This document shows, piece after piece, positions 581 to 3,241 of a stretch of DNA of 23,870 bases. Source of the stretch: a virus; the IMG/VR virus record IMGVR_UViG_3300023180_000401, positions 1 to 23,870 of that record, one strand, 5' to 3'. Each line of letters begins with the position of its first letter. Positions within the stretch are counted from its first letter, which is position 1. A model generated the notes under the pieces. It saw only the letters and a program-made list of their open reading frames with translations. It ran no database searches and was not told the DNA's origin. Both the position numbers and the translations under genes were made by a program.

Positions 581-1471
581 TTAATTAGCACACCTAAGTT
601 TGGTGTAGGCAAATACCTTTTCTGGTACGTTAATATCTAGTGCTGATTCAAATCCTTTGAATCCTGGGGAAGAGTTTGCTTCACAGATTCTATATCCATC
701 AGGATGGAATAAAAGATCAACACCAGCAATATCAAGGTCAAGAACTTTTGCAACTTGAATAGCAAGCATTTCCATTTCGTCGTCAACATCGTATGCCTCT
801 CCTTGTCCTCCACGAGAGATATTGGCTTTGAATGAACCATCTGTAGAGGTACGTTGCATGGCACCGATTACTCGACCACCAATAACAATCACACGAAGAT
901 CTCTTCCTTCTGAATGTTTAATGTACTCTTGAATGATCATGCTAGTTTTACTATCTAGCGAAGAAATAAGTTCCGATAGATCTTCAAACTGTTTAGCATT
1001 CTCACACAGATATACACCAGCACCATGAGAACCAGTGATTACTTTAAGCACACAAGGAAATCCTACTTGTTTCTCAACTAATTCTGCTTTACAAGGAAAA
1101 CGAGTAAGCAACGTTTTGGGGATAGGAAGTCCTGCCTGTGCCAGAATTTGGTTGGCATACATCTTATCCTTCGATGCTTCAATAGAATTAGAGTTTGGTA
1201 TCGTAGGTACATTCAATCTTTCAAATTGTCTGAGAACACTGAGATTAAAGTAACCAGTACCGCTACCAGTACGAGCAAGTAGTCCATCAGGGAGAGGAAC
1301 AATATCGTTACGATATCGAATAGATTTACGGTCATCTCTAGAAACAATTAAATCAATTTCGTCAGCAAATACTACAGAAAAATCAATTCCCTGTTTATCT
1401 GCTTCTTCAATAAACCGTTCACGTTCATATATCTCAGTAGTGAGACGATTACCAAGCATCCAAAGTTTCAT
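581..1471 (-). CDS. RimK-like ATP-grasp ligase
   Basis: A 296-residue protein of the RimK / ribosomal protein S6-glutamate ligase type. RimK enzymes use ATP to add glutamate residues to the C-terminus of a protein or to a small molecule. Visible signatures: an N-terminal pre-ATP-grasp region (1-100), ATP-binding Lys143 and the loop SHGAGV (148-153), IQEYI near 180, Arg/Asp in GRDLRV (189-194), and the metal site GVDLL (250-254) with CEANSSPGFKG (263-273; Glu264, Asn266), close to the canonical RimK motif. Length is near that of bacterial RimK (about 300). The ATG overlaps the upstream stop as ATGA, so translation is probably coupled to the secreted HExxH gene. Whether it targets host S6, another protein or a peptide cannot be told. 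Confidence 0.85.
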   Translation of the reverse strand: MKLWMLGNRLTTEIYERERFIEEADKQGIDFSVVFADEIDLIVSRDDRKSIRYRNDIVPLPDGLLARTGSGTGYFNLSVLRQFERLNVPTIPNSNSIEASKDKMYANQILAQAGLPIPKTLLTRFPCKAELVEKQVGFPCVLKVITGSHGAGVYLCENAKQFEDLSELISSLDSKTSMIIQEYIKHSEGRDLRVIVIGGRVIGAMQRTSTDGSFKANISRGGQGEAYDVDDEMEMLAIQVAKVLDLDIAGVDLLFHPDGYRICEANSSPGFKGFESALDINVPEKVFAYTKLRCAN

Positions 1472-2136
1472 TTAATAAAACCGTTTTCTTGTAACCACTT
1501 ACGAGTAAGTGGGGTTGGTGTGTAGTCAGTCCACATTGTACCAGCAGCACATGACTTAAGTGCTTTGAGAGTCATACCTTCAGTACGACCTGCCCACGCT
1601 GCTTCTGCTTCCCAAGGGACAGCAGATTTAGGATAGGTCTTTTCTACCATTTCTCGCCAGATAGAGGGCACTTTTTCCTCTGGCATAATGATGGCAATCA
1701 TAGAGTTTTCGATAGAACCTGCCATGCAGTCCTGAGCAGCGTGCCATCCTTCATGACGCATTACTGACATGAGAGTTGAGTATCTACCAACTAAGGCATC
1801 ATTAAGATAAAAGTTATTGCTAACAGTATGATACACACCACGGTGCCCAGGAGGAAAGTACTTAGAAGGAGCGAGATAAACCTTGACTCCAATGGCATTA
1901 GACGCTGTAACCAATTCATTGAATTCCTTAGCAATACTAGGTGACATAGGATACTTTTTATAGTAATTCGCTATGTCTTTATCGTTTTTAATTTCAACGA
2001 CACCATCAGTGCATTCTCCGAGGATCAGGCAACCCATGGCATCCATAGTGTACCACCCCTTTGTCGGTTTGGCAAGGGCGACTTGAGGTAACATCAGTAA
2101 TGATACACCTAGCGCCATAATTGTTTTTTTAATCAT
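1468..2136 (-). CDS. Secreted protein with HExxH (HEGWH) motif, candidate zinc peptidase
   Basis: 222 residues. Residues 1-22 form a signal peptide (MIKK, hydrophobic core, ALA before Lys23), so the protein should leave the cytoplasm. At 125-136 lies VMRHEGWHAAQD; His128-Glu129 and His132 match the HExxH zinc-binding and catalytic pattern of metallopeptidases in a helical setting. A possible third ligand is in EAEAAWAGRTEG (about 197-208), where an acidic residue follows about 65 residues later as in gluzincin-like enzymes; that is a guess. Four cysteines are candidates for disulfides. It overlaps both neighbours by 4 bases (ATGA), placing it in one operon with the 132-aa protein and the RimK-like ligase. 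Peptidase activity is inferred from the motif only. Confidence 0.75.
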   Translation of the reverse strand: MIKKTIMALGVSLLMLPQVALAKPTKGWYTMDAMGCLILGECTDGVVEIKNDKDIANYYKKYPMSPSIAKEFNELVTASNAIGVKVYLAPSKYFPPGHRGVYHTVSNNFYLNDALVGRYSTLMSVMRHEGWHAAQDCMAGSIENSMIAIIMPEEKVPSIWREMVEKTYPKSAVPWEAEAAWAGRTEGMTLKALKSCAAGTMWTDYTPTPLTRKWLQENGFIK

Positions 2137-2531
2137 TTTGATCCAAGAGAAAAAGAAGAAAGTCCCCGTTTGTCAACATTAATGACTTTATCAATGACCC
2201 CATTGATAAAGACAATTTTAAGTTCAGGATAAGGAACATAATATGCGTCCCATACAGAAGGGTATACTCTGATGGTATCGGTAATATAGCATGGGACAAC
2301 TCTCCCATGGTTACCGTTTGGTACAGATTCAAAAGTGTTCCATGGTGCAGTCCTTTCTTCTTCAGGAACATCTACAAAATCATGAGTACCTGAGTAGTCG
2401 ATTTCATACAATTGACCCGATGGAGAAATCCAATATTCTGCCATACTGCATACTAAATCTTTTGTCTGTAAATCTTTATGGAACCCAGGTCCAAGATCAT
2501 AAGAGGACCTGATAGTATCGAACATTCCCAT
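2133..2531 (-). CDS. Conserved phage protein of unknown function (132 aa)
   Basis: Begins MGMFDTIRSSYDLGPGFHKD and then has a Tyr/Asp-rich domain with YWISPSGQLYEIDYSGT. Proteins starting with this MFD...LGPGF block are common in cyanophages and some other phages; I know of no assigned function. No signal peptide or membrane segment is visible. It is the first gene after the perfect promoter at 2555-2583, with 23 bases between the -10 box and the ATG and no Shine-Dalgarno; a second in-frame ATG lies two codons on. Its stop overlaps the next start as ATGA, heading the operon with the HExxH protein and the RimK-like ligase. Confidence 0.8.
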   Translation of the reverse strand: MGMFDTIRSSYDLGPGFHKDLQTKDLVCSMAEYWISPSGQLYEIDYSGTHDFVDVPEEERTAPWNTFESVPNGNHGRVVPCYITDTIRVYPSVWDAYYVPYPELKIVFINGVIDKVINVDKRGLSSFSLGSK

Positions 2532-2554: not shown

Positions 2555-2583
2555 ATTATATAGAAAAAAAGGAGGGGTGTCAA
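2555..2583 (-). promoter_or_regulatory. Perfect-consensus promoter with its -35 in a terminator loop
   Basis: TTGACA at 2583-2578, 17-base spacer, TATAAT at 2560-2555: both boxes exact. The -35 hexamer is exactly the loop of the terminator at 2564-2591, and the spacer holds that terminator's right arm and T-tract. The start point should fall near 2548, downstream of the hairpin. It drives the operon 2531-581. Confidence 0.88.
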
Positions 2584-2591
2584 CCCCCCCT
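2564..2591 (-). terminator. Rho-independent terminator overlapping a promoter
   Basis: On the minus strand an 8-bp stem (left arm 2591-2584, right arm 2577-2570, one G-U pair), a six-base loop reading TTGACA, then seven T (2570-2564). It would end transcripts from the petE cluster and from the promoter at 2618-2646. Confidence 0.85.
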
Positions 2592-2617
2592 GTTGCCTTC
2601 CTTCACACGGAAGTTAA

Positions 2618-2646
2618 ATTATACCATAAAATTAAACAAGTGTCAA
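2618..2646 (-). promoter_or_regulatory. Second perfect-consensus promoter, upstream in tandem
   Basis: TTGACA at 2646-2641, 17-base spacer, TATAAT at 2623-2618. It lies just after the stop of the 55-aa gene (2652-2650). Its start point (about 2611) is only some 47 bases before the end of the terminator T-tract, so most transcripts should be tiny unless the terminator is read through. Confidence 0.82.
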
Positions 2647-3070: not shown

Positions 3071-3097
3071 AAGATGAACGATCCGTTCCGAGTCGGC

Positions 3098-3241
3098 TTA
3101 CTTGCGTTCGCTATTCGAAAATAGCGAATGAACGTATGGATGCTTTGCATCCTTTTTATTTATGATAGGTGGTCTGTATATTTGTGGCCAAGTATCATGA
3201 ATGATCTCGACCAGTTTGTAAGGTGTTTGTTCTTCTATCAC
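3098..3241 (-). CDS. Small protein, GTG start (47 aa)
   Basis: The GTG at 3241-3239 overlaps the upstream TGA as GTGA, and the frame stays open to TAA at 3100-3098. The product begins MIEEQTPYKLVEIIHDTWPQ, with a Trp/Pro-rich centre (IYRPPI) and a basic tail. No known family. The 4-base overlap and exact fit between neighbours support a real gene. Its 3' end contains a strong hairpin (arms 3107-3115 and 3120-3128, TTCG loop on this strand). Confidence 0.55.
   Translation of the reverse strand: MIEEQTPYKLVEIIHDTWPQIYRPPIINKKDAKHPYVHSLFSNSERK

Follow-up and report, generated by a model that had tools for sequence, protein, structure and literature searches.

A predicted terminator carrying the -35 box of the next promoter in its loop, recurrent among T4-like cyanophages

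Promoters and terminators of T4-like cyanophages were predicted separately in PMC3037559, whose passages on them do not mention overlap between the two. In vitro, E. coli RNA polymerase does not leave the DNA when it terminates at an intrinsic terminator and starts again at promoters close by (PMC6978380), and sense re-initiation at terminator-adjacent promoters has been proposed (PMC6978322). No published description of a promoter inside a terminator was found among open-access papers. The site described here lies in a 23.9-kb IMG/VR virus record (the window, 23,870 nt in all) that carries T4-like cyanophage genes, including psbA, petE, a RimK-like gene and tRNAs. PhotoRC-II and wcaG RNAs also lie in it, and we take the genome to be that of a marine cyanophage.

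On the minus strand, 5' to 3', the site reads CAGGGGGGG[TTGACA]CCCCTCCTTTTTTTCTATATAATGAGG. Positions 2591-2564 are AGGGGGGG TTGACA CCCCTCCT TTTTTT, followed by CTA and then the -10 box of a promoter, P2 (Table 1). An earlier note on this DNA had described a strong terminator with TTGACA as its loop and TATAAT 17 bases on, hairpin and promoter occupying the same bases, and this description holds. Both hexamers of P2 match consensus (12/12), the spacer of 17 nt lies within the 16-18 expected for sigma-70, and it is composed of the right arm of the stem and the T-tract. The hairpin (2591-2570) has eight pairs, one of them G-U, and folds at -15.7 kcal/mol (z -3.0), a value equalled by 1 of 200 shuffles. 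That the loop is exactly TTGACA is correct for the palindrome in the sequence and less so for the folded RNA, in which the first T and the final A of TTGACA pair as well, giving 9 bp and a loop of UGAC. The stable GC-rich hairpin and the T-tract immediately after the stem are those of an intrinsic terminator; a bidirectional terminator was rejected because the other side lacks an A-tract. The RNA of P2 is predicted to start near 2548. The site thus has a -35 box in a terminator loop, a spacing of 16-17 nt and a predicted RNA without the hairpin, as in the overlapping architecture described here for Kyanoviridae.

Table 1. Features of the site and of its neighbours, in window coordinates.
Feature	Position	Strand	Basis or remark
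RimK-like ATP-grasp protein	581..1471	minus	third gene downstream
phrog_591 protein, HEGWH (HExxH) motif, signal-like N-terminus	1468..2136	minus	second gene downstream
First gene downstream, phrog_1615	2133..2531	minus	start codon 23 nt past -10
-10 box TATAAT of promoter P2	2555..2560	minus	sequence
Intrinsic terminator (predicted), 8-9 bp GC-rich stem, loop TTGACA	2564..2591	minus	sequence and folding
T-tract TTTTTTT, directly 3' of stem	2570-2564	minus	sequence
-35 box TTGACA, equal to terminator loop	2578..2583	minus	sequence
Conserved motif CTTCCGTGTGAAGGAAG, between P1 and terminator	2597..2613	minus	IMG/VR recurrence
Second perfect promoter P1, TTGACA-17-TATAAT, TG before -10	2618..2646	minus	sequence
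Upstream gene phrog_545, 55 aa	2650..2817	minus	directly upstream

The element had been placed between a petE cluster and a RimK/HExxH operon. The RimK-like and HEGWH genes do lie downstream, but the immediate upstream neighbour is the phrog_545 ORF, with petE further up. Close to petE, a small ORF has a weak match to the glutamine riboswitch directly before it (3080-3136, minus; 29.5 bits, cut-off 35). When the complete intergenic region was used as a BLAST query, the matches were mainly to the downstream gene. Upstream of phrog_1615 the element was found in two other lineages and was absent in 29 of 35 phrog_1615 relatives. The stems of those two lineages, GAAGGGG/CCCCTTC and AGAGAGGG/CCCTCTCT, differ and are still complementary, and the distance from -10 to ATG is alike, 23 nt in the window and 20-22 nt in the two lineages.

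IMG/VR was searched with the pattern GG[TTGACA]CC, T5, TATAAT, which had loose gaps and demanded a stem of only 2 bp. At least 120 loci matched. A control with the loop reverse-complemented matched 2 loci, and a control with the stem broken matched 29, mostly unrelated repeats without the 16-18 spacing. Among the matches listed, 118 of 122 sites had a spacing of 16-17 nt, though the pattern tolerated far more, and about three-quarters had stems of 5-14 bp. Of 55 distinct arm pairs, 32 form perfect stems with 6 bp or more (shuffled mean 13.7, maximum 22). By protein, 115 of 120 loci listed resembled named Kyanoviridae, in a comparison that used only ten genomes. A slightly stricter pattern gave 21 matches across bacterial and archaeal genomes totalling 257 Gb, mostly with stems of 2-4 bp and none from a cyanobacterium by title, and an origin from the host was rejected on these grounds. 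As far as these sequences tell, the element is a design that these viruses reuse, with varying stem letters, and not a one-off.

The start point of P2 can be compared with related elements that precede the manA RNA (Rfam RF01745). The conserved 5' end of this RNA lies 5-11 nt past the -10 box in 20 of 20 elements upstream of it, namely those of P-SSM2, P-RSM4 and S-SSM5 and of 17 metagenomic loci; the loci were picked for the element or its subtype and not at random, and all 17 metagenomic ones precede the manA RNA. For a sigma-70 promoter an RNA start 6-9 nt past the -10 box is expected. The position of the manA RNA agrees with the promoter prediction and supports the earlier claim that the promoter's RNA would start past the hairpin. 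Among cultured phages, the element lies at 142801-142828 in P-SSM2, 116355-116382 in S-SSM5 and 184228-184256 in Bellamy. We think it probable that a tandem transcription-unit boundary has here been compressed into one terminator/promoter piece whose own RNA lacks the hairpin. Transcripts arriving from the phrog_545/petE side and from P1 would fold the GC-rich hairpin and stop in the T-tract, as had been proposed for incoming RNA and as the stable hairpin and T-tract lead one to expect. The same DNA would act as a promoter, with its -35 box in the loop, a 17-bp spacer made of right arm and T-tract, and its -10 box immediately behind. Since the P2 transcript would begin beyond the hairpin, it should escape termination by it. 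A match in length probably favours such a layout: the 3' half of a terminator spans roughly one sigma-70 spacer, and a -35 box in the loop is therefore the phase that puts the -10 box right behind the terminator. The suggestion that the piece is an insulator applies at the level of RNA only: a polymerase stopping in the T-tract would cover the promoter, and promoter occlusion would not be prevented. Promoter-bound and elongating polymerases would hinder each other here, which we count against the compressed boundary, as we do the absence of the element from most phrog_1615 relatives and the small share of consensus promoters that are so built. The overlap, its phase and the pairing kept as stems change are evident from sequence and statistics, as are the copies at phrog_1615 and manA; termination and initiation at this site, and their timing in infection, we infer.

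The major capsid gene is a late gene in T4, and promoters of the T4 late type need no -35 box. In these phages a conserved terminator stands 3' of the major capsid gene. Most relatives have a T4-type late box (TAAATA) immediately behind the T-tract of this terminator, and a loop such as UUCG or GAAA; a smaller number have a sigma-70 -10 box there, and among these TTGACA, TTTACA and TTGACG are frequent loops. At this site a -35 loop was present in 5 of 11 terminators with a sigma-70 -10 box against 1 of 61 (p 2e-4, with categories set post hoc, after inspection) and in 0 of 50 terminators with a late box. Across all terminators, -35-like loops occurred in 19/28 with an abutting sigma-70 -10 box against 23/301 (p 5e-13) in one sample and in 9/26 against 15/261 (p 5e-5) in another; related loci within each sample make these and the other counts given here non-independent and the p-values optimistic. 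Late boxes followed 31/329 and 26/288 stems, and control windows gave 1 and 4. This association between loop and box, at the capsid gene and across all terminators, suggests as the general scheme a terminator that runs into the next promoter, with the -35 loop answering the need of a sigma-70 promoter in that position. Where the next promoter is of the late type and needs no -35 box, the loop would be an ordinary UUCG or GAAA. The window contains a late form as well: at 21547-21528 (minus) stands a terminator with a T4-type late box, TATAAATA, directly behind its T-tract (to 21520).

These findings bear on a reading in which the element is shared in time, acting as a promoter early, while host sigma-70 is active and the upstream late genes are silent, and as a terminator late, once late transcripts come in from upstream and sigma-70 promoters are off. 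Several copies do stand directly after the major capsid gene and before small or manA-led genes, and other phages have a late-type box there in place of the sigma-70 one. For copies with the capsid gene upstream, division by time is plausible from this arrangement. The genes upstream of the window element are instead petE/psbA and phrog_545, and for the element as a whole we regard time-sharing as a tentative possibility, somewhat short of even.

The compressed boundary has also to be set against compaction without further consequence, in which promoters and terminators crowd short gaps and overlap by chance, the benefit being saved bases and perhaps neutral. The same-strand offset of the -35 box from the terminator loop was measured for strong promoters (at least 11/12) and strong terminators, scored by consensus, in three samples not chosen for the element: 79 psbA-chosen contigs (1.01 Mb), 34 phrog_1615-chosen contigs and nine named cyanophage genomes. 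The -35 box lay within 8 nt of the loop in 23/200, 9/70 and 11/273 promoters, respectively, with the peak at zero offset. On the opposite strand, 0, 0 and 0 promoters had a -35 box in a terminator loop. The 52-nt upstream flank, which represents the ordinary order of terminator and then promoter, held only 7, 2 and 4, so that zero offset was about ten times denser. The overlap is a minority architecture, comprising about 4-13% of consensus promoters, and the T4 genome had no overlap of -35 box and terminator loop. Within the psbA-bearing contigs (1.01 Mb), a hairpin surrounded 8 of 138 TTGACA with a -10 box against 1 of 337 without. Among 140 distinct terminators with six-base loops in that sample, TTGACA tied for second place (7; CTTCGG was first with 27), and all 7 had a -10 box at the correct distance. 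The comparison that the earlier note had proposed, of loops equal to promoter hexamers with controls, was thus strongly positive, and chance origin was rejected, the controls of loop, stem, strand and offset all being against it.

Other phases of overlap were seen. At 3938-3889 (minus) a promoter (11/12) lies across the psbA stop codon and a strong terminator begins at the end of its -10 box; the start point would fall within the left arm of the hairpin, and the layout was also found after psbA in other phages. This second class (offset -35 to -41) was rejected as a general one, since 11 of its 15 cases in the psbA sample sit at the 3' end of psbA and are orthologous to one another. At 8875-8835 (minus) a 12-bp terminator has the other hexamer in its loop, TACGAT, which is the -10 box of a TTGACA-17-TACGAT promoter. 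The existence of these two sites and the short gene gaps of cyanophages are what compaction predicts, but it does not account for offsets that are concentrated at zero and not spread over the gap, nor for the maintained complementarity of the stems. We therefore think compaction rather doubtful as a full account; it differs from the compressed boundary mainly in whether sharing bases brings a regulatory gain.

A further reading, implied by the term re-initiator in the earlier note, couples the two activities: a polymerase stopped in the T-tract would stay on the DNA and restart at the overlapping promoter, and upstream transcription would feed the downstream operon. The behaviour of E. coli RNA polymerase in vitro (PMC6978380) and the sense re-initiation already proposed (PMC6978322) are precedents, and the distance from terminator to promoter is here essentially zero. 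On the other hand, sigma would have to be retained or rebound, the precedent is not from a cyanobacterial polymerase, and no sequence feature separates such coupling from plain overlap; we judge it unlikely. That a dimeric regulator binds the repeat as its operator, and that there is no terminator, is very improbable indeed: the repeat around TTGACA, although symmetric and centred on the -35 box, varies freely in its stem letters with only pairing kept, has a T-tract on one side only, and has ordinary UUCG terminators in its place in other phages.

The compressed boundary would receive transcripts from a promoter of its own as well. P1 is directed into the hairpin, 27 nt away, and between the two lies the CTTCCGTGTGAAGGAAG motif, for which IMG/VR held at least 120 loci. 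Among the matches listed there were 89 distinct contexts: 47 had an upstream -10 box and a terminator after the motif, with the -10 box 4-5 nt before it in 41 of the 47; in 17 the motif stood at a tRNA 3' end with a terminator; and in 5 it followed a late box. The end of the terminator stem was 38-49 nt from the start of the motif in nearly all contexts listed, and the base at the expected RNA start was often a pyrimidine. The conserved unit can be written as a -10 box or tRNA 3' end, then TTCCGTGTGAAGGAAG(TG), then a terminator; it recurs among the IMG/VR loci and occupies 2646-2564 (minus) in the window. The unit was not found in Rfam 15. An antisense match of the motif to tRNA-Val anticodon arms was set aside as probably coincidence, a terminator being present in 0 of 8. 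The simplest reading is a discrete candidate RNA of about 50 nt (2614-2564 in the window), made in two ways, from its own promoter or from a tRNA 3' end; CTTCCGTGTGAAGGAAG is likely its 5' part and the terminator its end. With P1 and the motif just upstream, the hairpin would then also be the end of a promoter-RNA unit. This unit, the wide distribution of the architecture and its late-promoter counterpart go beyond the earlier note. The most far-reaching proposal would combine these strands into a standard stop/start element of cyanophages, which hands a terminating polymerase to the next promoter, couples or time-shares neighbouring operons, and includes a hairpin ending a widespread, undescribed small RNA made from its own promoter or a tRNA 3' end; this is speculative, and we do not expect all of it to be right.

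Such an element would give large lytic phages a compact, recurrent means to separate and restart transcription units, and it would account for -35 boxes in terminator loops. Separate predictions of promoters and terminators will clash at these sites or discard one of the pair. The sites are also natural templates for asking whether a polymerase that a terminator has released starts again at the neighbouring promoter.

Compared with known systems, the element resembles the intrinsic terminators of T4-like phages in its GC stem, short loop and T-tract, and versions with a UUCG loop occupy the same post-capsid site; it differs in having a -35 box as its loop and a T-tract that belongs to a promoter spacer. 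As a promoter it has the TTGACA-16/17-TATAAT form of the sigma-70 early promoters predicted for T4-like cyanophages in PMC3037559, and is unlike them in being embedded in a terminator. It shares with the systems of polymerase recycling and re-initiation (PMC6978380, PMC6978322) a promoter near a terminator; there the elements were separate ones, in vitro, or the starts were antisense, and here the bases are shared and the direction is sense. The cyanophage manA RNA leaders (RF01745) have the element as promoter and upstream terminator in all 20 examined, whereas in the window an ordinary gene, and no manA RNA, follows it. A similar layout is found in Staphylococcus phage 6ec (KJ804259), in which an annotated terminator (137-180, minus) overlaps GGGG TTGACA CCCC with TATAAT 17 nt on, the stretch as a whole being 135-180. 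Its stem is short, its T-tract is weaker and the phage is unrelated; the overlap of this annotated terminator with TTGACA...TATAAT suggests that the layout arises outside cyanophages too.
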